A DNA stretch of 64,000 nt, from NCBI RefSeq assembly GCF_003290185.1, contig NZ_QNFY01000002.1, positions 62,001 through 126,000 on the forward strand, in the 5' to 3' direction. The position numbers were made by a program, and so were the translations under genes. This document shows, in pieces, positions 32,961 to 41,538 of the stretch (its first letter is position 1; each line of letters begins with the position of its first letter). The notes beneath the pieces are model-generated. The model saw nothing but the letters and a program-made list of their open reading frames with translations. It was not told the DNA's origin and did not search any database. Origin of the DNA: Chryseobacterium lathyri (GTDB lineage Bacteria; Bacteroidota; Bacteroidia; Flavobacteriales; Weeksellaceae).

Positions 32961-34601
32961 ATGAAAACATTCTTCTCTCTAGTCTTACTCATAATCTTAT
33001 TTTCCTGCAGAAGGGAAAGCAACAGAGAAAGTAGTCATAAAAATCCTAATTATGAGAAAGCAAAACAATTCCGTATAGCGAATAAACCTGATTCGGCATT
33101 CTATTATTATAATTTGGCAAAAAGTGATTACACAGCCAACAACGATTCATTAGGAGCCGCCAAATCCTTAGTAAATATGGCAATGCTCCAAACTACTTCT
33201 GGCGATTTCTATGGAAGTATTGAATCTTCATTGGAGGCAAATAGCCTGCTTAAAAATGAAAAAGACAGCATTACAAGAAGCACTTTAGCTACAAATTATA
33301 ATAATATGGCTATGGCATCTAATTCTCTTAAGGAATATGAAAAAGCTTTTGAACTGTTTAAAAAAGCATTAAGGTACGTTGATAATAAAGAGGATGAATA
33401 TTTATGTTATAATAATATTTCAGATGTATTAATAAGCCAGAAAAATATAAAACTGGCCAAAAAATATCTTCAAAATGCAATACTGGCAAAAGACAGTATT
33501 AATTATTCCAGAGCTTTAAATAATTTTGCCAAAGCAAAATACCTAGATGATAAAAATTACAACCCACTGCCAGAACTATATAAAGCATTGGTAATTAGAG
33601 AAACACAACAGGACAATTGGGGGAAAAATGCTAGTTATGCCACATTATCTGACTACTTTGCAGAAAAAGATAAAATAAAAGCTCTTTTTTTTGCAAAAAA
33701 GATGTTACAAACGGCATCAAATATTAAAAGCCCAGATGATAAAAAAGAAGCTTTGTTAAGAATTATTTATTTAGATCCTGTTAATTATTTAAATAACTTT
33801 CAAAAATTTAATAGTGTTAATGATAGCATTCAAACAGCAAGAAACAAAGCAAAGAATCAATTTGCTCTTATCAGGTTTGATGTTGAGAAAATGAAAACTG
33901 ATATTGCAGAGGGGCGAAACCAATTGTTAATTAAGAATATTCTTGTTGCAGCTCTAATTATAGCAATCATTATAATTATCATATGGTATTGGAAAAGACA
34001 AAAAAGACTCAAACAAGAAAAAGAGCTCGAAATTAAAAACACCCAGCTCAAACTCTCCAAAAAAGTTCACGACGTGGTTGCCAACGGCATTTACCAGGTC
34101 ATGACAAAAATAGAAAATCAGGAAAATTTTGATAAAGAAAAAGCTTTAGATGAGCTGGAATTTGTGTACGAGAAATCCAGAGACATTTCCTACGAAAAGG
34201 AAGATGCTAAAGATGAACAGGATTTTAGCGAAAAGATTTCAAACAGTATTGGCTCTTTTAATAACGATACAGTAAAAACCTATATCGCTGGAAACGAAAA
34301 AAATATCTGGGAAAATGTAAGCCAGCCTAAACAGGAAGAAATCTATCAAATCATTCGTGAGCTGCTTGTCAACATGAAAAAACACAGCAAAGCATCTGTT
34401 GTTTCGTTTCGCTTTGAAAGAATTAACAATGAGATCACCATCCACTATAAAGACAATGGAATTGGAGTGTCCGGAGCAGTAATGTATAAAAATGGATTAT
34501 CAAATGCGGTTTCCCGTATAGAAATTTTGAAAGGACAAATTATTTTTGACACCGAAACCGAAAAAGGATTGAAAATCGACATTTCATTTCCTGTTTACTA
34601 A
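32961..34601 (+). CDS. TPR-repeat sensor histidine kinase (NarL/LuxR-type)
   Basis: From the ATG at 32961 the protein has 546 residues. A lipoprotein-like signal (LLIILFSC) leads into a periplasmic region of about 290 residues with TPR-type helical repeats (NPDSAFYYYNLA, EYEKAFELFKKAL). One membrane helix follows at about 322-345. The cytosolic part has a dimerisation helix with the phospho-acceptor His370 in KKVHDVVANGIYQ. The HATPase domain has RELLVNMKKHSKA (N box) and DNGIGVSG (G1-type box). This is a typical Bacteroidota sensor whose TPRs bind peptides or proteins. The partner response regulator starts 11 bases downstream. An upstream in-frame codon in the terminator was rejected as the start. 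Confidence 0.85.
   Translation: MKTFFSLVLLIILFSCRRESNRESSHKNPNYEKAKQFRIANKPDSAFYYYNLAKSDYTANNDSLGAAKSLVNMAMLQTTSGDFYGSIESSLEANSLLKNEKDSITRSTLATNYNNMAMASNSLKEYEKAFELFKKALRYVDNKEDEYLCYNNISDVLISQKNIKLAKKYLQNAILAKDSINYSRALNNFAKAKYLDDKNYNPLPELYKALVIRETQQDNWGKNASYATLSDYFAEKDKIKALFFAKKMLQTASNIKSPDDKKEALLRIIYLDPVNYLNNFQKFNSVNDSIQTARNKAKNQFALIRFDVEKMKTDIAEGRNQLLIKNILVAALIIAIIIIIIWYWKRQKRLKQEKELEIKNTQLKLSKKVHDVVANGIYQVMTKIENQENFDKEKALDELEFVYEKSRDISYEKEDAKDEQDFSEKISNSIGSFNNDTVKTYIAGNEKNIWENVSQPKQEEIYQIIRELLVNMKKHSKASVVSFRFERINNEITIHYKDNGIGVSGAVMYKNGLSNAVSRIEILKGQIIFDTETEKGLKIDISFPVY
34504..34519. promoter_or_regulatory. Operator-like dyad, copy 2, inside the kinase 3' end
   Basis: Matches the 32369-32384 dyad at 15 of 16 bases. 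It lies about 95 bases upstream of the response regulator ATG, within codons for AVSRI. It could be an internal autoregulatory site or a coincidence of coding; the second is less likely given the match length. Confidence 0.35.
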
Positions 34602-34612
34602 AAAACTAAAAA

Positions 34613-35278
34613 ATGTTCAAAAAAATTTTAATAGCCGAAGACCATGAAATGGGTAGTTTATCTGTCCAGAAAACATTAGAAGAACTCAATATTCCGAATG
34701 TTGATTATGTATATTACTGTGATGATGCTTTAGCAAAAATTAAAAAATCTATTCGGGAAAACGATCCTTACGACTTGATGATTACGGATCTTTCTTATGA
34801 AGAAGATCATCATCTTCAGAATATTAAAGATGGAAAAGAACTGATTGACGAAGTCAGAAAGTTACAGCCTTTATTAAAAATCATTGTCTTTTCCGGAGAA
34901 CGTAAATCAGGAATTATTGATTTGCTTTTTACCGAATTCAGGATTAACGGATACGTCTGCAAAGCCAGAAACGACTCTAAAGAACTGAAAAAAGCAATCG
35001 CATCCGTTTACGTTAATGAAAACTATCTGTCTCTTGACCTTAAACAAGAAGTTAAAAAACTCAACAGTTATGAGTTTACAAAATATGACATAACACTTGT
35101 TTCTCTTCTTTCTCAAGGGGTTCAGCAAAAAAATATTCCGACTTATCTGCAGAATAATAATATCACACCCAATAGCCTGAGTAGTGTGGAAAAAAAATTA
35201 AACAGTTTAAAAGAAGCACTTGGAGTTACAAGCAATGAACAATTAATAGCTTTCTGCAAAGATCTGGGAATTATTTAA
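34613..35278 (+). CDS. Response regulator of the TPR kinase
   Basis: The 221-residue protein has an N-terminal receiver domain with the acidic pair E9-D10, the phospho-acceptor D59 (MITDLSYEEDHH), a Ser in the VFSGE switch position and Lys in GYVCKARND. The C-terminal 70 residues form a helical region (FTKYDITLVSLLSQGVQQKNI...) that resembles a divergent LuxR/NarL helix-turn-helix. The loop between strand 3 and helix 3 is unusually long and acidic. It starts 11 bases after the kinase gene and is followed by a terminator, then by the dyad and promoter of the ten-gene operon, which I suggest is its target. Confidence 0.82.
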   Translation: MFKKILIAEDHEMGSLSVQKTLEELNIPNVDYVYYCDDALAKIKKSIRENDPYDLMITDLSYEEDHHLQNIKDGKELIDEVRKLQPLLKIIVFSGERKSGIIDLLFTEFRINGYVCKARNDSKELKKAIASVYVNENYLSLDLKQEVKKLNSYEFTKYDITLVSLLSQGVQQKNIPTYLQNNNITPNSLSSVEKKLNSLKEALGVTSNEQLIAFCKDLGII

Positions 35279-35332: not shown

Positions 35333-35348
35333 TTACGGTTAACCGTAA
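35333..35348. promoter_or_regulatory. Operator-like dyad, copy 3: perfect 16-base palindrome
   Basis: TTACGGTTAACCGTAA reads the same on both strands. It lies just upstream of a TTG (35352-35354) and a TACTTTTG box (35370-35377), the promoter of the ten-gene operon. It shares TACGGTT..CCGTA with the dyads at 32369 and 34504. Activator binding just upstream of the promoter by the adjacent response regulator is the simplest reading. Confidence 0.65.
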
Positions 35349-35369: not shown

Positions 35370-35377
35370 TACTTTTG
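35370..35377 (+). promoter_or_regulatory. -7 box (TACTTTTG) of the ten-gene operon
   Basis: Exact TAnnTTTG match, 15 bases after a TTG; the spacing is slightly short for the usual -33/-7 pair, which fits a promoter that needs an activator. The first ATG of the operon is at 35405. Confidence 0.6.
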
Positions 35378-35404: not shown

Positions 35405-35611
35405 ATGAAAAAGTATTACGTAAACAAAAGAGCACAAAGCAACGGAGATCATGAAGTACATCATGAAAACTGCAAATATCTACCGGACCCTGCGAATAGA
35501 AAATATTTGGGAGAATATTCTTCTTGTAAGGATGCTGTAAAAGAATCAAAGAAAACGTACTCCCAATCAAATGGATGTAAAACATGTTCAAACGAATGTC
35601 ACACTAGCTAA
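35405..35611 (+). CDS. Small Cys/His-rich protein, first gene of the ten-gene operon
   Basis: The protein (68 residues) has a conserved-looking pattern DHEVHHENCKYLPDP...YLGEYSSCKDAVKESKK...NGCKTCSNECHTS, with five cysteines and several histidines. The layout HxxxC ... C ... CxxC suggests a metal site. Small proteins of this type are known across bacteria without a function. The next gene (YegP-like) starts nine bases later. Confidence 0.6.
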   Translation: MKKYYVNKRAQSNGDHEVHHENCKYLPDPANRKYLGEYSSCKDAVKESKKTYSQSNGCKTCSNECHTS

Positions 35612-35620
35612 GTAATTGTT

Positions 35621-35953
35621 ATGGAAAAATTTGTCATCACAAAAAGAGTCAACAGCGAGTATCAGTTTAATCTAAAAGCCGGAAATGGCGAAATCATTTT
35701 AACAAGCGAAGGCTACGTTCAAAAAGCATCTTGTATAAAAGGTATTGAATCTGTGAGGGTCAATTCCCAGGAAGATTCAAGATACGACAGAAGAGTTGCG
35801 AAAAACGATAAAGACTACTTTGTACTAAAAGCAAGAAACGGAGAAATCATTGGTAAAAGTCAATATTACAGTTCCAAATCTTCAATGGAAATCGGGATTT
35901 CATCTGTGAAAAAAAATGCGTCTACTGCTGAAATCGTTGACGAAACCCTTTAA
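35621..35953 (+). CDS. YegP family (DUF1508) protein
   Basis: The 110-residue protein consists of two tandem DUF1508 repeats of about 50 residues each, both with the core F.LKA.NGEII: FNLKAGNGEIILTSEGYVQKASCIKGIESV and YFVLKARNGEIIGKSQYYSSKSSMEIGISSV. This is the YegP fold of unknown biochemical role. It sits nine bases after the Cys/His gene and ten before the nuclease-like gene, within one operon. Confidence 0.88.
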   Translation: MEKFVITKRVNSEYQFNLKAGNGEIILTSEGYVQKASCIKGIESVRVNSQEDSRYDRRVAKNDKDYFVLKARNGEIIGKSQYYSSKSSMEIGISSVKKNASTAEIVDETL

Positions 35954-35963
35954 AAACAATACT

Positions 35964-37034
35964 ATGGATCTCAAAATTAAACTTGAACAGTTACACCAGA
36001 AAGTAGTCGGCCTGAAAGACCAGATCAGTACGGAAGAAGCGACAAAAAATGCTTTTGTAATGCCTTTTATACAGATTTTAGGGTACGATATCTTTAATCC
36101 GACAGAAGTTCTTCCGGAACATATTTGCGACATCGGAACGAAAAAGGGAGAGAAAGTAGATTATGTAATCAAACATAATGATGAACCTATTTTTATTATA
36201 GAATGTAAGCACTGGAAAGAAAATGCTGATGCACACAATTCTCAGCTTCACCGGTATTATCATGTTTCAAAAACACGGTTTGGCGTGTTGACCAATGGAA
36301 TCGTCTATAATTTCTATACCGACCTGGAAAAGCCTAATATTATGGATGAGAAGCCTTTTTTCACCATCAATATTGAAGATTTAAAAGACAGTTCTATCAA
36401 AATTCTTGAAAGTTTCACCAAAAAAGATTACAATCTTGAAAGCATATTAGATTCTGCCGAAGCTTTAAAATACATCAAAGCGATCAGAAAAGAGTTTGAG
36501 AAAGAAATTGAAACCCCATCCGATGAACTCGTCAAATTATTGGTCAGTAGATTTTTTGAAAAACACCTGACAGCCAACAGAATGGTTTCTTTTAAAGAAT
36601 ATACCAAGAAGGCTTTAACGACTTCCATCAATGAATCCATCAGTTTCAGGCTTAAATCTGCATTAAGCATTAATGAACAGATTGAAAAACAGGAAGAAGG
36701 GGTGAAAACCGCTCAGTCTATCGATGAAAATAATGATTCAAAGATTGTAACCACCGAAGAAGAGTTGGAAGCCTTCCAGATTGTAAAAGCTATTTTAAGA
36801 GAAAAAGTTCCTTCCCAGAGAATTGCCCACAGGGATACTCTATCCTATTTTGGAGTTTTACTGGATGACAACAACAGAAAACCGCTTTGCCGCTTTCACT
36901 TTAATACCTCAAATAAATATCTGGAAACTTTTCATAACGGTAAAGAAGCTGGGGAAAAAGTCCTATTGAACAATCTGGATGAAATTTACAATTTCAAAGA
37001 AGCACTCCATAAAACCTTAGAAAACTATAATTAA
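35964..37034 (+). CDS. Solitary PD-(D/E)xK nuclease (type I restriction R-subunit N-terminal domain type)
   Basis: From the ATG at 35964 the protein has 356 residues. Its N-terminal region matches the HSDR_N domain of type I restriction R subunits. The nuclease core is D66...E80-C-K82 in EKVDYVIKHNDEPIFIIECKHWKE, preceded by TKNAFVMPFIQILGYDIFNPTEVLPEH. The C-terminal 100 residues form a separate compact domain (VPSQRIAHRDTLSYFGVLLDDNNRKPLCRFHF). No helicase, methyltransferase or specificity subunit is nearby, so it is not a full restriction system. An upstream in-frame start would overlap the YegP-like gene and was rejected. Membership in this operon suggests defence or DNA-stress work, by inference. 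Confidence 0.8.
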   Translation: MDLKIKLEQLHQKVVGLKDQISTEEATKNAFVMPFIQILGYDIFNPTEVLPEHICDIGTKKGEKVDYVIKHNDEPIFIIECKHWKENADAHNSQLHRYYHVSKTRFGVLTNGIVYNFYTDLEKPNIMDEKPFFTINIEDLKDSSIKILESFTKKDYNLESILDSAEALKYIKAIRKEFEKEIETPSDELVKLLVSRFFEKHLTANRMVSFKEYTKKALTTSINESISFRLKSALSINEQIEKQEEGVKTAQSIDENNDSKIVTTEEELEAFQIVKAILREKVPSQRIAHRDTLSYFGVLLDDNNRKPLCRFHFNTSNKYLETFHNGKEAGEKVLLNNLDEIYNFKEALHKTLENYN

Positions 37035-37049
37035 CAAAAACTAATATCC

Positions 37050-37556
37050 ATGAAAACACTCATCTCTATACTCATCCTAAGCATTGGTATATTGACTGCT
37101 GATTCTTTCAGTCTTTCCGGCTCCAAAAGCCTACACCATGGCAGAAGATGTACCGGTTCTGCATCATGCAGTGCCTGCTCCAACTGTACAGGTTGCGCTC
37201 ATTGCTCTTCCGGAGGAAGCTGCGGCGTATGCAGTGGTGGCTCTTATGGAAAGAAATCATCTTCCAGTAAAAAGAAATCTAAAGCCTCTCCGGATTCGCA
37301 TTACACTAAAAAAAGTAAATCTTATAATTCTCCGAAAATCCGGATTGATGAAATCAACATCAATACCAACAACCGGTATTTTGCAGGGATTGCAATAACC
37401 AAGATCTATGAAAAGCCTTTTCTAAAGTCTAAAGTAATAGAGACCGTTCCAAAAAACACTGAATTAAAACAGTTATCCAAACAGGATTCCTGGTATAAAG
37501 TGCAGGTGAAAAAAAGCGGAAAAGTAGGATATGTCTATTACAAAGATGTAAAATAA
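37050..37556 (+). CDS. Secreted Cys-rich protein with SH3 domain
   Basis: The protein (168 residues) begins with a signal peptide (MKTLISILILSIGILTADSFS). A Cys/Gly/Ser-rich segment follows (about residues 33-65, nine cysteines in CxxC-like spacing), then a Ser/Lys-rich linker. A C-terminal bacterial SH3-like domain closes it (about 110-168: FAGIAITKIYEKPFLKSKVIETVPKNTELKQL... WYKVQVKKSGKVGYVYYKDV). Such SH3 domains often bind peptidoglycan or peptides. The cysteine cluster suggests disulfide or metal binding in the periplasm. Confidence 0.72.
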   Translation: MKTLISILILSIGILTADSFSLSGSKSLHHGRRCTGSASCSACSNCTGCAHCSSGGSCGVCSGGSYGKKSSSSKKKSKASPDSHYTKKSKSYNSPKIRIDEININTNNRYFAGIAITKIYEKPFLKSKVIETVPKNTELKQLSKQDSWYKVQVKKSGKVGYVYYKDVK

Positions 37557-37574
37557 TTTGAAAAACAAAACATC

Positions 37575-38198
37575 ATGAATTTAAAGAAATTTTTAAACGA
37601 AGAACAAGATCCAAAAGCCGTTGAAAAGCTTTTAGAGAGAATCAATGATCTTATAACATCTCAGGAGTTTGTAGAATATATTGCTGTTCAAAAAAAACCT
37701 GCTATCAATTTTTCTCCAGACTGTATCGCACTTACCAACAGAAGAATTATCTTCTGCAGACCTAAAAACTTTGGATTATCCATGGACTTTCAGGATTATA
37801 ATTGGGTAGATATTGCAGATTGTCATATTAAAGAAGGAATTTTAGGGGCCACTTTTACAATGAAAACCATAGGCAATTATACCAATATGATGGATTATCT
37901 GCCAAAAGCCCAAGCCAGAAAACTTTACCAGTTTGCCCAGGAAATTGAAGAGAAGATGAGAGGTGTAAGAAGAGAAAAAGATCTTGAGGTCAGAAGAGCC
38001 TCAGCAGGTGGAGTTACAGTAAATAATGCCACCCCGATAATAGCACAACCTTTTCAAACTCCGCAAACTGTTACACAGCTTATAGAAGCTGAAGATCCTT
38101 TTGCTGTTTTACAAAAACTGAAAGGATTAATGGATAACGGAATCATTTCTGTCGAAGAATTTGAAAGTAAAAAGAACGAAATATTATCAAGAGTTTAG
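37575..38198 (+). CDS. PH-domain protein with C-terminal SHOCT motif
   Basis: The 207-residue protein has an N-terminal bacterial PH-like domain (about 20-130; IALTNRRIIFCRPKNFGLSMDFQDYNWVDIADC is typical of bPH proteins). A linker follows, and then a C-terminal SHOCT helix pair (EDPFAVLQKLKGLMDNGIISVEEFESKKNEILSRV). PH/SHOCT proteins are usually found with membrane stress or defence modules, where SHOCT is thought to mediate oligomerisation. Its stop is four bases before the next gene. Confidence 0.85.
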   Translation: MNLKKFLNEEQDPKAVEKLLERINDLITSQEFVEYIAVQKKPAINFSPDCIALTNRRIIFCRPKNFGLSMDFQDYNWVDIADCHIKEGILGATFTMKTIGNYTNMMDYLPKAQARKLYQFAQEIEEKMRGVRREKDLEVRRASAGGVTVNNATPIIAQPFQTPQTVTQLIEAEDPFAVLQKLKGLMDNGIISVEEFESKKNEILSRV

Positions 38199-38202
38199 CC
38201 AT

Positions 38203-38418
38203 ATGAAATCAAAATTTACTGCTGCAATGCTTGCTTTCTTTTTAGGCGGCCTAGGCATTCATAGATTTTATTTAGCACAAAATAAATTAGGATTATTGTA
38301 TTTGCTATTCTTTTGGACATTCATTCCCGCATTTATTGCACTGATTGATTTTTTCATTTTCATTTTTATGTCTGAAGATAATTTTAATTACAAATATAAT
38401 CTCAAGACCGGATTTTAA
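38203..38418 (+). CDS. TM2 domain protein
   Basis: From the ATG at 38203 the protein has 71 residues and is a near-complete TM2 domain: two helices (about 7-25 and 30-55), with the conserved FFLGGLGIHRFYLAQNKLGLLYLL. TM2 proteins are small inner-membrane proteins of unsettled function. It lies four bases after the PH/SHOCT gene, with an in-frame upstream TTG inside that gene rejected as start. Confidence 0.87.
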   Translation: MKSKFTAAMLAFFLGGLGIHRFYLAQNKLGLLYLLFFWTFIPAFIALIDFFIFIFMSEDNFNYKYNLKTGF

Positions 38419-38429
38419 AACTTAATCCC

Positions 38430-38831
38430 ATGAAACCTTTTCTTACCTTATGCGCGGTCTGTTGTTTCCTAGCTATTTTCAGACTTCCTATAGAATATTA
38501 TACTATTTTGAGAATTCTCATTTCCATGGGTGCTTTACTTGTTTTGTATAATGCAGTCCGTTTTAAGCAATATTATTTCAGTCTGATTTTCCTCTTCATC
38601 CTTATCCTTTTCAACCCTGTTTTTCCTATTTATCTGTACAGAAAAAATATCTGGATTCCTATGGATATCATAACCGGGATCCTCTTTCTGCTGATCGCTT
38701 TTGTTGAAAAACCGGAAGAAAAAAAGAAAGAAATCACAGAAGCTACGGAAGAAACGATAGCACACCCTACCCAGCCGAGGCTCCATTCCCGGGATGTCAT
38801 TATTAATCCTAAAAAACCAAGAGAAAACTAA
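38430..38831 (+). CDS. DUF6804-like membrane protein
   Basis: The protein (133 residues) has four hydrophobic segments in the first 95 residues, with the stretch LFNPVFPIYLYRKNIWIPMDIITG that I associate with DUF6804, followed by a Lys/Glu-rich cytosolic tail. No function is known. It sits 11 bases after the TM2 gene and seven before the TerB-like gene. Confidence 0.65.
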   Translation: MKPFLTLCAVCCFLAIFRLPIEYYTILRILISMGALLVLYNAVRFKQYYFSLIFLFILILFNPVFPIYLYRKNIWIPMDIITGILFLLIAFVEKPEEKKKEITEATEETIAHPTQPRLHSRDVIINPKKPREN

Positions 38832-38838
38832 TCCAACC

Positions 38839-39246
38839 ATGGAACATATTCAAATTACCGAAAACCTTAAAGCACATTTTTTAAGACTCTACCAGATGGC
38901 CATCTGTGATGATGATTTCAGTACCCTGGAACTGAAAATGCTTTATAAATGTGCGGAAGAAAGAGGAATATCCCCTAAAAACCTGGACGAAATCCTTTTA
39001 AATCCTATCAATTTTAAATCACTCGTTCCCCAGACCATTGAAGAAAAAGTAGACTATCTCTATGACCTCACTGTAATGATCTGGGCAGATGGAGTAGTTT
39101 CCCCGAATGAATATTCTGCAATGGAAAAATATGTTCTGATGTTTGGGTTCCTTCAAGAAAACGTAAAAGCGATTGTCGATTATCTGATAACCTCTGTAAA
39201 AACCGGAAAAAATAAAACAGATATTTTATACGAACTAAAAAACTAA
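38839..39246 (+). CDS. TerB-like protein
   Basis: From the ATG at 38839 the all-helical protein has 135 residues. It has two repeats of the TerB pattern, acidic residues followed by a helix: CDDDFSTLELKMLYKCAEERGI (about 23-44) and ADGVVSPNEYSAMEKYVLMFGF. TerB is a metal-binding signalling domain of the tellurite-resistance/stress (Ter) modules, often linked to VWA proteins and membrane partners. That is the pattern seen in this operon. Confidence 0.78.
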   Translation: MEHIQITENLKAHFLRLYQMAICDDDFSTLELKMLYKCAEERGISPKNLDEILLNPINFKSLVPQTIEEKVDYLYDLTVMIWADGVVSPNEYSAMEKYVLMFGFLQENVKAIVDYLITSVKTGKNKTDILYELKN

Positions 39247-39252
39247 CTGATC

Positions 39253-40590
39253 ATGACCACTAATATTAAAAATTTATTCAAATTAAAATCAATTCCCATT
39301 GAAGCGTCAAAAGAAGAATCTCCCATACCGGAAATTGATTCCAATGCAGAATCTCCTGAGGAAAGCAGAAAGCGAACCTACCATGAATCCGGCTATAGAG
39401 ACAGTTCCAGAAATAATGGAAACCATACAACGCTCTTCATTTGCCTGGATGCCGTTTACTCCAAATTCCAGAATGAGGAAAAAGAAATGGTGGAAAAACA
39501 GCAAAAGCTCAAAGAATCTTATATTAATGAACAAAAAAACAGAGAAACAGAGATTAAAGCATTGACCGTTTCACTGGAAACCAAAGAAGAACAATTTAAC
39601 AATAAAAATAATGAAATTGAGAATCATCAAAATAAAATTGAAAGTTTAAAAGTGGAGATCAACGATTTACCCAGAAATCCGGAAAAGCACAATGTAAAAG
39701 CAACAAAAGGGGCTTCCACAAAATTCTGGATCGGTGCCATTCTTCTTGTTCCCATCAGTTTGTACCTGCTTACATTTTATATTTCAACTTCCTATTCGGC
39801 GTTTTTTAAAAGTTTTGATGCTAAAAGCACGGTGATTCAAAGTGTATTAGATGCACAGGCGTTCAGCAAAGCATGGAATGAAGGGGCAATAGAAGGGGCT
39901 TTTGTCACCCTGATTCCATCTGTTTTCTTAGGTCTTGGTTTTTTAATTCATATGTTTGGAGAAAACAAAACCAGACTCAATTATATCAAACTGGGACTGT
40001 TATTCCTCATCACCTTCATCTTCGATGCTATTTTGGCATACGAAATTGAGTCTAAATTATATGAACTAAACAAAACCTTCGATTCTCCCCCATTCAATCT
40101 TAAAATCGCTTTTACCAAAAATCAGTTTTGGGGAATTATTTTCGCGGGATTCATTGTTTACATTATTTGGGGACTGGTTTTCGATTTTGTGATGAAGGAA
40201 CACCGGGAGAAAGATAAAATTAAAAACGAACAGGAGATCAGACAGAAAAATGTGCTCTTCCTGATGGAAAAAATTAATGTTCTTAAAAAAGAAATTGAAG
40301 AAATCCTTGTCAGTATCGGAACGACTAAAGAACTCATCATAAAAACACGCGGAAGAATTGAAGAACTTCAAAACATCATTGACGGAGTGATTATTCCTAC
40401 CAAAGATTACAAACTCTACGCTTCGGAATATGTTCAGGGCTGGATTACCTATATCGGTGAAAAAATAGCTGTTTCAAAAACGGAAAAGCAAACCATGATA
40501 GACAGCTGTATCGACACCTACAACACCAATCTGAAAGATGTAGGAGCTAACTCTGATAATCAAAATTTAGTTTATTTATCTGCATTATAA
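39253..40590 (+). CDS. Coiled-coil multi-pass membrane protein, unknown family
   Basis: The 445-residue protein has a polar N-terminus, then a long coiled coil (about 70-140, ending in KIESLKVEINDLPRN). Four membrane helices follow (about 157-177, 213-232, 243-262, 290-312). A second coiled coil lies at about 320-375 (KIKNEQEIRQKNVLFLMEKINVLKKEIEEI) and a helical tail completes it. The layout, two cytosolic coils around a four-helix membrane core, would suit a signalling or pore-forming scaffold. No known family is recognised. It starts six bases after the TerB-like gene. Confidence 0.65.
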   Translation: MTTNIKNLFKLKSIPIEASKEESPIPEIDSNAESPEESRKRTYHESGYRDSSRNNGNHTTLFICLDAVYSKFQNEEKEMVEKQQKLKESYINEQKNRETEIKALTVSLETKEEQFNNKNNEIENHQNKIESLKVEINDLPRNPEKHNVKATKGASTKFWIGAILLVPISLYLLTFYISTSYSAFFKSFDAKSTVIQSVLDAQAFSKAWNEGAIEGAFVTLIPSVFLGLGFLIHMFGENKTRLNYIKLGLLFLITFIFDAILAYEIESKLYELNKTFDSPPFNLKIAFTKNQFWGIIFAGFIVYIIWGLVFDFVMKEHREKDKIKNEQEIRQKNVLFLMEKINVLKKEIEEILVSIGTTKELIIKTRGRIEELQNIIDGVIIPTKDYKLYASEYVQGWITYIGEKIAVSKTEKQTMIDSCIDTYNTNLKDVGANSDNQNLVYLSAL

Positions 40591-40600
40591 GTCACTTGTC

Positions 40601-41488
40601 ATGAAAAAAATATTGTATTTATTATTAATCATTTCTTTGGTCTGCTGTTGTAAAAAAGAACCCAAAGATCTCCCACCTGGTACAACTTCTTCTAAAGTTG
40701 ACTCTAACAATATCAATGTCAGTATTCTGATTGATTTATCCGACCGGATTGATCCCCAAATAAACCCGAATCCAACAATGGAATATTTCCAAAGGGATAT
40801 AGAATATATTAAAGCAATCGAAAAAGGATTTCTGAACCATATCAAAACAAAAAGAATCATCACGTATAATGATCAGATGCAGGTCTTCTTCAATCCTGAG
40901 CCTTCCGACCCTAAAATCAATGACTTTACAAAAGAGCTTAAAGTTTCTTTCGATCAAAATACAAACAAAGCCTATTTCAATACCGTTGAAAAAAAATATG
41001 CTACATTACCCACCAATATTTATCAGTCTGCAATTAAAGACGGAAAATATGTAGGTTCTGATATCTGGGAATTTTTTAAAAATAAAGTCAATGATTATTG
41101 TGTAAAAGAAGATCACAAGAATATCTTGTTTATCCTGACAGACGGATACATGTATCATGAAAATTCCAAGTTTTCAGAAAAAACAAAAACCTCTTATTTA
41201 ACCTCAAAGCTTATTAAATCAAACAATTTAACAAAGTCTGATTTTAAAACGACATTTGAGAAGAATAATTTTGGTTTCGTGAAAGCCAATGATAATTTAA
41301 GCAACCTGGAAGTCATTGTACTCGGAATTAATCCTGAAAAAGGGAATCCATTTGAGGAAGCCGTTATCAAAGAATACTGGGAAAATTGGTTTAAAGAAAT
41401 GAAAATTAAAAAATATCAGATAAAATCAGCCGATTTACCTTCCAATTTAGAACCTATTATTATAAAAGCCATTACAGGTGAATCATAA
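40601..41488 (+). CDS. Lipoprotein with VWA-like domain
   Basis: The 295-residue protein has a lipoprotein signal with a triple cysteine (LLLIISLVCCCKK) followed by a VWA-type fold. The first strand and metal loop ILIDLSDRI (residues about 42-50) resembles MIDAS DxSxS but lacks the last serine. ILFILTDGYMY carries the TDG part of MIDAS. The metal site may be degenerate. It is the last gene of the operon and is followed by a strong hairpin. A surface-exposed VWA protein beside TerB fits the Ter-type association of VWA and TerB. Confidence 0.75.
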   Translation: MKKILYLLLIISLVCCCKKEPKDLPPGTTSSKVDSNNINVSILIDLSDRIDPQINPNPTMEYFQRDIEYIKAIEKGFLNHIKTKRIITYNDQMQVFFNPEPSDPKINDFTKELKVSFDQNTNKAYFNTVEKKYATLPTNIYQSAIKDGKYVGSDIWEFFKNKVNDYCVKEDHKNILFILTDGYMYHENSKFSEKTKTSYLTSKLIKSNNLTKSDFKTTFEKNNFGFVKANDNLSNLEVIVLGINPEKGNPFEEAVIKEYWENWFKEMKIKKYQIKSADLPSNLEPIIIKAITGES

Positions 41489-41512: not shown

Positions 41513-41538
41513 AAAAGCGAAGATTTCTCTTCGCTTTT
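41513..41538. terminator. Bidirectional terminator ending the ten-gene operon
   Basis: An 11-bp stem, AAAAGCGAAGA with TCTTCGCTTTT, a four-base loop, with A and T runs on both sides. It also closes the convergent acetyltransferase gene. Confidence 0.85.

Follow-up and report, generated by a model that had tools for sequence, protein, structure and literature searches.

The window, a 64,000-nucleotide stretch of the Chryseobacterium lathyri genome, carries ten open reading frames between positions 35405 and 41488, all listed on the + strand. The gaps between them are, from 5' to 3', 9, 10, 15, 18, 4, 11, 7, 6 and 10 bp, the start of gene 3 being set at the ATG at 35964 for this measurement. 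The locus extends past these ten genes, with a TPR-repeat kinase and a response regulator (RR) standing immediately upstream. Its features are as follows.

32961–34601, + strand: sensor histidine kinase with a lipobox-like start, TPR repeats, one TM segment and a HATPase domain (Pfam and sequence)
34613–35278, + strand: RR, RcsB/VraR-like (Response_reg over the Pfam cut-off; PDB profile matches)
35333–35348, + strand: predicted operator dyad TTACGG-N4-CCGTAA, TTACGGTTAACCGTAA (motif scans of loci and genomes)
35370–35377, + strand: promoter element TAnnTTTG, TACTTTTG, 21 bp downstream of the dyad and 27 bp before the first ATG (motif scans)
35405–35611, + strand: gene 1, small Cys/His protein (ORF without a Pfam match)
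35621–35953, + strand: gene 2, YegP-like, two DUF1508 (Pfam)
35964–37034, + strand: gene 3, HSDR_N-type PD-(D/E)xK nuclease, candidate effector (Pfam, 5.4e-15)
37050–37556, + strand: gene 4, secreted Cys-rich SH3_3 protein, accessory (Pfam)
37575–38198, + strand: gene 5, bPH_3 with SHOCT, accessory (Pfam)
38203–38418, + strand: gene 6, TM2 protein, accessory (Pfam)
38430–38831, + strand: gene 7, DUF6804 membrane protein, accessory (Pfam)
38839–39246, + strand: gene 8, TerB-like, core (Pfam TerB below cut-off)
39253–40590, + strand: gene 9 (CC), four-TM coiled-coil protein, core (hydrophobic segments and AF2 model)
40601–41488, + strand: gene 10, VWA-fold lipoprotein with an altered metal site, core (AF2 model and fold comparison)
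41513–41538, + strand: terminator-like hairpin (position and length)

Coordinates and motif positions thus bear out the preliminary description of ten same-strand genes with gaps of 4–18 bp, a dyad-linked promoter in front and a terminator behind; the kinase, the RR and the operator did not figure in it. A terminator scan predicts 5 hairpins of this kind in the region where chance would give 5.3, and the call at 41513–41538 rests on position and length. A σ70 scan returns a number of promoters close to chance with a model that excludes Bacteroidota promoters.

Among the ten proteins, the matches to DUF1508, HSDR_N, SH3_3, bPH_3 with SHOCT, TM2 and DUF6804 exceed the Pfam cut-offs, so the labels YegP-like, SH3, PH/SHOCT, TM2 and DUF6804 given earlier hold, and no Pfam family matches genes 1, 9 or 10 significantly. 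The TerB-like label stands in part: gene 8 does match Pfam TerB (PF05099), but at 18.4 bits, under the curated cut-off of 24.4, and a PF05099 search of the window's own genome gives no match at 0.001. The proposed link to Ter-type stress modules is accordingly weak. A TerB-like and a VWA-fold protein do occur together, as in those modules, but here TerB is below its threshold, no TerD is present in the operon and the VWA protein is a lipoprotein without a Pfam VWA match; membership of the operon in a Ter module is ruled out by these Pfam results. Type I restriction-modification was likewise rejected, since gene 3 matches HSDR_N regions only and no methylase or specificity gene is found among the ten. 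We found no published description of the operon or the regulon in the open-licence literature, the terms also being sought in the available portions of PMC9723704, PMC5395568 and PMC12839542, which agrees with the earlier statement that no named system with such a gene set was known.

The TerB–CC–VWA core

The TerB-like protein, CC and the VWA lipoprotein form a conserved unit. First of all, CC adjoins VWA in 78 of 80 fetched relative loci, and in 79 of them after a profile recheck; of the two loci at first scored as non-adjacent, L116 has a VWA gene that was skipped by the ORF caller and later found beside CC, and L190 has a gap of 207 bp. Second, a TerB-like gene is present in 64 of these loci and the kinase is matched in 62. 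The set comprises the best 80 among 145 relatives, ordered by their similarity to an Ignavibacteria sequence, and presence means a gene anywhere in the fetched locus, with ORFs taken from a simple caller. Third, a Runella protein is a natural CC–VWA fusion (E 3e-45 for CC and 4e-34 for VWA, using profiles without any Runella row). The kinase-linked form is a single clade in a tree that omits L161, a short contig on which no kinase is seen, and L192, whose locus has the operator and lacks a kinase. An OmpA-like gene is also found around the core. Chance grouping of the genes is ruled out by the CC–VWA adjacency and the shared operator. A mobile-element origin was also rejected: no relatives of CC were found in phage records or viral contigs, and one was found in plasmids (Runella).

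The accessory genes are distributed differently in the genus and beyond it. SH3 is present in 12 of the 13 other loci fetched from the same genus and in 7 of the 80 wider loci, PH/SHOCT in 9 and 2, TM2 in 9 and 6, and DUF6804 in 13 and 8, respectively. The TerB, VWA and coiled-coil genes are not scattered singly, as they would be in a chance assembly, and what survives of the exact ten-gene set as a unit is a recurrent operon with these three as its core, but not PH/SHOCT, SH3 or TM2.

CC has four hydrophobic segments, and its AF2 model (pLDDT 83.0, pTM 0.53) consists of long paired helices. Foldseek with this model, also used to look for the MotA/ExbB-like fold of a Zorya-type membrane subunit, finds long-coiled-coil rows alone, with no row at E 0.001 or below; this outcome is uninformative and does not prove that the fold is new. 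A PDB sequence search gives coiled-coil rows only and is likewise uninformative. Modelled with AF2 (pLDDT 89.6), gene 10 has a VWA fold, matching VIA with a Z of 13.1 (rmsd 3.1, 177 aligned) and many VWA chains near Z 12–13. The usual VWA metal site is DxSxS; gene 10 departs from it with D-L-S-D-R, invariant in 32 aligned rows (D-M-S-[DS]-R in L103–L105), and the VWA-like fold and partly degenerate metal site that had been read from the letters hold.

The two-component pair, its predicted operator and the putative regulon

In the kinase, TPR_12 is over its Pfam cut-off and HATPase_c reaches 25.3 bits, 1.1 under the cut-off of 26.4; the best PDB profile matches of the RR are to RcsB (E 8e-11). 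An adjacent kinase and receiver-domain regulator constitute a two-component pair, here with HATPase_c just sub-threshold. Located after the RR gene, and recurring genome-wide, is a composite site in which TTAyGG-N4-CCrTAA is followed after 21 bp by TAnnTTTG, which we take to be the Bacteroidota -7 element. The dyad, with at most one mismatch, occurs in 75 of 84 distinct upstream regions (duplicates removed) against 90 occurrences in the other 1.67 Mb of these loci, and is therefore present beyond chance. The spacing is exactly 21 bp in 94 of 113 sites (counted by eye, then rechecked), with 31 spacings allowed.

The site also follows the regulator across genomes. Of 296 genomes of the order, 71 have the RR, and 66 of these carry the site; none of the 225 genomes that lack the RR does (overlap taken by eye, then rechecked). 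Among relatives' genomes the corresponding counts are 35 of 36 and 0 of 23; Fisher values for these comparisons are overstated, because genomes of one clade are non-independent. The window genome's own regulon is small, with one further exact site and others with one or two mismatches. From position and co-occurrence, the RR is predicted to bind the dyad and to regulate the genes behind it. It is very improbable that the dyad is bound instead by another factor of the same distribution. Five of the 71 order genomes, and G011 among the relatives, do carry the RR without an exact site, but the location directly after the RR gene, the absence of the site from every RR-less order genome and the agreement within one genus, where three genomes have both and two have neither, all speak for the RR.

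Behind 80 sampled sites, PADLOC finds Kiwa, Gabija, Shango, Qat, Hachiman and R-M among the genes. These sites were hand-picked among the matches listed of 153 (a sum made by eye, then rechecked), those of the CC operon, of its nuclease and of PLD-CC being left out; six have no same-strand ORF within 300 bp, and the scan took in 139 of the 142 downstream proteins, three from a Shango-like operon being left out because of their size. In a systematic sample, comprising the longest gene of every fourth operon, 8 of 19 operons have PADLOC matches against 1 of 45 control proteins (p 1.3e-4), a modest control drawn from one window; among ten hand-picked regulon proteins, six match. Part of the matches are to candidate (PDC) models or are partial (DrmC). 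Some targets are not evidently defence, such as a GLPGLI-like gene, small lipoproteins and TerD, and several regulon genes encode small secreted proteins or lipoproteins; the labels GLPGLI-like, PemK-like and sigma-like come from reading the sequences by eye rather than from a tool. The ten operon proteins themselves give only weak PADLOC matches (TerB-like to PDC-S48, 4.1e-05; nuclease to Cas4, 0.006; CC to LmuB, 0.067).

The strongest case for a defence role comes from the two-component pair and the operator; this role had been suggested earlier and is now favoured, with known defence families sitting behind the same operator. With a probability of roughly 0.55, we thus read the operon as an envelope-anchored antiviral device and as the resident part of a putative immune regulon under two-component control. 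RcsB and VraR, which the RR resembles, respond to envelope stress, and the module could instead be a machine for envelope-stress repair or sensing that has no part in defence, the regulon mixing both kinds of gene since the same stress triggers both. The lipoproteins, SH3, PH/SHOCT and the OmpA-like gene around the core would suit such a machine, as would the small secreted and lipoprotein genes of the regulon; known defence families among the regulon genes, the nuclease and PLD links and the CRISPR-linked relatives nevertheless make it quite unlikely and argue for the antiviral device.

Proposed mode of action and related systems

In the proposed antiviral device, the lipoprotein-type TPR kinase would detect a disturbance of the envelope, plausibly phage attack, and phosphorylate the RcsB-like RR. 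The RR would then bind the TTAyGG-N4-CCrTAA dyad 21 bp upstream of TAnnTTTG, a step to which the observed site and its co-occurrence with the RR point, and would switch on the operon together with defence genes scattered over the genome. CC may act as an inner-membrane hub, with four TM segments and its coiled coil on the cytoplasmic side, assembled with the periplasmic VWA-fold lipoprotein and the cytosolic TerB-like protein, as suggested by co-occurrence, the natural fusion and the computed VWA fold. This core would bring a nuclease (the PD-(D/E)xK protein here, a CC-fused PLD in some relatives) to the membrane, there to cleave DNA as it enters the cell.

The association of a PD-(D/E)xK nuclease (D66, E80, K82) with the operon, already proposed in the preliminary description, is supported. 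Besides the HSDR_N match of gene 3, over the Pfam cut-off, the three residues are kept in 53 of 53 relatives, and a separately placed nuclease bears its own operator–promoter copy in 20 fetched loci from 17 genomes. A PLD domain is fused to CC in some relatives, the catalytic histidine being missing in two of five PLD-CC fusions. The nuclease is the candidate effector; it may not be the effector, because only 31 of the 80 loci have a PD-(D/E)xK gene. CC and VWA could alternatively form a membrane-damaging abortive-infection effector that opens or distorts the inner membrane like Cam1 or Csx23, the nuclease being optional, a possibility that we consider unlikely. In line with it are the many loci in which the nuclease is missing and the distant CC–VWA pairs, which adjoin type III CRISPR ring-nuclease/CARF genes or stand within a III-B locus; those beside Csx20, CARF or Csx3-like genes have no PD-(D/E)xK nuclease next door. 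Ring nucleases, according to the available part of PMC12409355, usually go with cOA-activated effectors. However, no cOA-binding CARF domain was found in the window CC or VWA, and the operator-linked nuclease and the PLD-CC fusion suggest DNA cutting.

For the distant pairs, cas, ring-nuclease or CARF neighbours are found at L019, L098, L099 and L100, and weakly at L101 (Csx3, 7.2e-05). No such neighbours were found at L102, L117 or the Niastella loci, and the Niastella-type and L117 loci gave no defence neighbours. That the window operon belongs to type III CRISPR was rejected, with no cas10 match in the window genome (TIGR02577 only). A 2019 survey of type III accessory proteins could list a CRISPR-linked CC–VWA family.

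Several known systems are comparable in plan. The Gac/Rsm pathway acts post-transcriptionally. In Pseudomonas this one signalling pathway (GRP) governs a species-variable defence set that includes phage defence, as described in the accessible text of PMC11888443, and the likeness lies in a single pathway over varied defence systems, here predicted; the differences are an unrelated Flavobacteriales kinase–regulator pair, a predicted direct action at a fixed operator–promoter site and a regulatory locus that itself encodes a device. Zorya (ZorAB plus nuclease) is, in the portion of PMC11890865 available, an inner-membrane assembly that has a long cytoplasmic part and a domain in the periplasm and recruits a nuclease to where the phage attacks. 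We propose a similar inner-membrane plan, with a VWA-fold lipoprotein as the periplasmic partner instead, and the ten proteins have no PADLOC match to ZorA, ZorB or its nuclease at E up to 0.1. The PLD-CC fusions resemble in plan SNIPE, an inner-membrane nuclease that cuts phage DNA during injection (PMC13190303), but SNIPE has DUF4041 and GIY-YIG, and neither has a Pfam match among the ten proteins. Finally, the effectors Cam1, Cam2, Cam3 and Csx23 are membrane proteins in type III CRISPR settings, where distant CC–VWA pairs also occur. Those described in PMC11229360 combine TM segments with CARF, REC or another soluble domain, and the words "VWA" and "coiled" are absent from the text of that paper that was available.

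When bacteria switch on costly defence systems is a largely open question, and the regulation of defence elements "remains poorly understood", in the words of the accessible part of PMC11888443. In part of an order, one regulator–operator pair is here predicted to coordinate many unrelated defence systems. The operator may also be used as a finder, the 11 of 19 sampled operons without a PADLOC match being candidate new defence systems, and the CC–VWA family is a membrane module found in both stand-alone and CRISPR-linked settings. Probably, many Flavobacteriales have a dedicated immune two-component system, consisting of a surface TPR kinase and an RcsB-like RR acting through one operator 21 bp ahead of the promoter core, which would run a genome-wide, strain-variable anti-phage set (Kiwa, Gabija, Shango, Qat, Hachiman and R-M) with an undescribed TerB–CC–VWA nuclease device as its resident output; in other lineages the same CC–VWA core would have been linked, separately, to type III CRISPR (cyclic oligoadenylate) settings.

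Operon and conserved unit

The preliminary description had proposed ten narrowly spaced genes in a given order, closed by a terminator, and these features are borne out:
35405-41488, ten-gene operon ending in TerB (TerB-like, gene 8), CC (four-TM coiled-coil protein, gene 9) and VWA (VWA-fold lipoprotein, gene 10).
In addition, a TPR sensor histidine kinase (HK) and a response regulator (RR) stand directly upstream.

A full-length close CC gene is present in 14 of 36 genus genomes examined, the nearest named relative in the CC tree being that of Chryseobacterium gregarium (84%). TerB, CC, VWA, DUF6804 and YegP genes occur at all 13 other genus loci fetched, the PD-(D/E)xK nuclease (gene 3) and the SH3 gene at 12 each, PH/SHOCT and TM2 at nine each, and the small Cys/His gene 1 at seven. 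Among the wider set of fetched loci (the best 80 of 145 relatives, with organism names), VWA lies directly 3' of CC in 78, with a median gap of 4 bp; L116, at first scored as non-adjacent, proved adjacent on re-check, and a 207-bp gap separates the two genes in L190. The same 80 loci hold TerB in 64, HK in 62, RR in 61, the nuclease in 31, gene 1 in 22, YegP in eight and PH/SHOCT in two, while across 395 phylum genomes the CC model matches in 25, the VWA model in 24 and both side by side in 21. These counts define the conserved unit as HK-RR-(variable small genes)-TerB-CC-VWA; the nuclease may lie before or after it or be missing. A second, tandem response regulator (42–48% identity to the window's RR) stands between kinase and operon at 9/13 genus loci (L023-L028, L030-L032).

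Operator, regulator and putative regulon

Within 240 bp behind the RR gene, the dyad TTACGG-N4-CCGTAA with at most one mismatch is found in 75 of 84 distinct HK-RR-CC loci (nine are without it); 29 of these dyads are exact, TTATGG is the usual variant, and the promoter element TAnnTTTG follows exactly 21 bp past the dyad in 70. The remainder of these loci, 1.67 Mb, holds 90 such dyads. When the spacing is left free between 6 and 36, a value of 21 is found at 94 of the 113 sites in 20 genus genomes. Scanning 117 loci for the composite of dyad, spacer and promoter element placed a copy directly 5' of a nuclease gene in 20 (17 genomes), as well as 5' of PLD-CC genes that lack a neighbouring kinase (L035, L036) and of TerB in Kaistella (L192). 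In three genomes lacking the CC operon (L259, L270, L281), the operator behind the regulator leads into a different conserved operon, with first genes of 149 and 567 aa.

The exact composite occurs in 35/59 relatives (153 sites), its reversed control pattern in 0/59. RR (E < 1e-30) is present in 36 of the 59, including all 35 site-bearing genomes; the exception, G011, has RR at 64% without an exact site. Across 296 genomes of the order, sites are found in 66 of 71 with RR versus none of 225 without, against three matches for the reversed pattern. Outside the genus, 11/11 family genomes with RR carry sites, as opposed to 0/9 others, and one genus includes three genomes with both and two with neither. 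Control of the operon by the adjacent HK-RR pair through the predicted operator is very probable (about 0.9).

The window genome has one additional exact site, 5' of a type III R-M gene pair. If one or two mismatches are tolerated, further sites appear ahead of single DUF6119, zinc-ribbon and HTH genes, ahead of a gene for a small secreted protein together with a GLPGLI-like one, and ahead of a TM gene accompanied by a DUF6602 gene; at up to three mismatches there are 21 sites versus six for the reversed pattern, so that the weaker sites are partly due to chance. In 80 downstream regions sampled from relatives' sites, a same-strand ORF begins within 300 bp in 74, 48 of them within 60 bp. PADLOC matched 501 models at 1e-10 on 139 downstream proteins, led by GajA, OLD and AriA, and gave one match on 45 control proteins of the window. 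Pfam found type III R-M (3), BrxC/D-type ATPase (4) with TerB_C (4), KwaB (2), putAbiC (2), DNA methylase (2), TerD (2), HSDR_N (2) and DUF6119. Six of ten chosen downstream proteins matched (QatA, HamB, type I methylase, a dCTPase model, OLD-like and PDC-M11A), and a systematic sample of 19 operons gave eight PADLOC matches (PDC-S26, QatA, OLD/GajA, GajB, DrmC, PDC-S71, HerA and Shango SngA) versus 1/45 controls (p = 1.3e-4). The remaining operons carry genes of no known kind, some of them homologues of the gene 3 nuclease (L255, L303). It is likely that the regulon is mainly antiviral.

DUF4236 proteins of ~375 aa lie behind operator sites in five operons (L274, L284, L306, L318, L322), and a similar protein stands beside VWA at L090:11082-12209.

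Pathway-wide control of defence systems has been reported for Pseudomonas Gac/Rsm (PMC11888443); the literature searched yielded no description of a Bacteroidota regulon in which a two-component system governs defence genes through a fixed operator, nor of a TerB-CC-VWA device.

Distant CC-VWA pairs

Outside the kinase-linked clade, CC-VWA pairs adjoin Csx20 (L098, L099), a CARF-PDDEXK nuclease with another CARF protein (L100) or a weakly Csx3-like gene (L101), and possibly represent an undescribed cOA-linked membrane module. No Csx20, CARF, Csx3-like or CRISPR-type genes were seen among the neighbours inspected in L102, L117 and the Niastella loci. A Cmr2-type cas10 match occurs in 4/38 CC-bearing genomes, each under the curated cut-off and all in distant lineages, one ~15 kb from its CC-VWA pair and three on other contigs. 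In a 34-row CC tree, whose several long branches leave deep joins unsure, the kinase-linked, PLD and OmpA contexts require one change each and the CRISPR context two. Features at these loci are:
L019:14962-17076 (NZ_CP031032.1), CC-VWA fusion annotated as hypothetical, inside a Runella plasmid III-B CRISPR-Cas locus between effector genes and cas1/cas2.
L099:127-4848, BREX island upstream of CC-VWA, with BrxL (PADLOC) and a PglZ-like gene (read from sequence).
L115:2189-6158, L099:11701-15701 and L101:435-2996, recurrent cassette beside CC-VWA with a Lon_C-type protease (Pfam in L115 only) and genes labelled by reading as sigma-like, anti-sigma-like and PemK-like; it resembles the CalpL/CalpT/CalpS cassette.
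L102:9031-12202 and L167-L179 (Chitinophagaceae), CC-VWA plus a ~303-aa gene, without kinase pair or TerB.
This third gene follows VWA, and the one copy tested is weakly OmpA-like, under the Pfam cut-off.

Proposed device and signalling

CC has four hydrophobic segments, which places both ends on one side of the membrane, assumed to be the cytoplasm; its AF2 model shows the membrane part flanked by helices 58-138 and 290-377, which may be read as an antiparallel coiled coil. The VWA protein has a VWA fold with an altered metal site, and 63 of 71 such proteins have a lipobox-like start by a simple pattern. The Runella fusion is a single 704-aa protein, in which models built without the Runella row recover CC at residues 42-417 (3e-45) and VWA at 471-703 (4e-34). 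Five loci have a PLD domain N-terminal to CC (Pfam confirms both of those submitted), its HxK(x)4D motif complete in three and lacking the histidine in two.

TerB, CC and VWA very probably form one device. Their anatomy and fusions fit a hub in the inner membrane that would extend a nuclease arm into the cytosol and a VWA arm into the periplasm; the nuclease is an even-odds candidate for the effector. The main rival holds that the device is itself a membrane-killing effector; we favour a membrane-tethered nuclease, a plan resembling those reported for Zorya (PMC11890865) and SNIPE (PMC13190303).

The kinase carries a TPR sensor, and 83/108 kinase-like ORFs have a lipobox-like start. The best PDB matches of RR are RcsB and VraR, which elsewhere respond to envelope stress. 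Most likely, envelope disturbance would activate the kinase and, through it, the regulator, which would then act at the operator to induce the TerB-CC-VWA device together with other defence systems.
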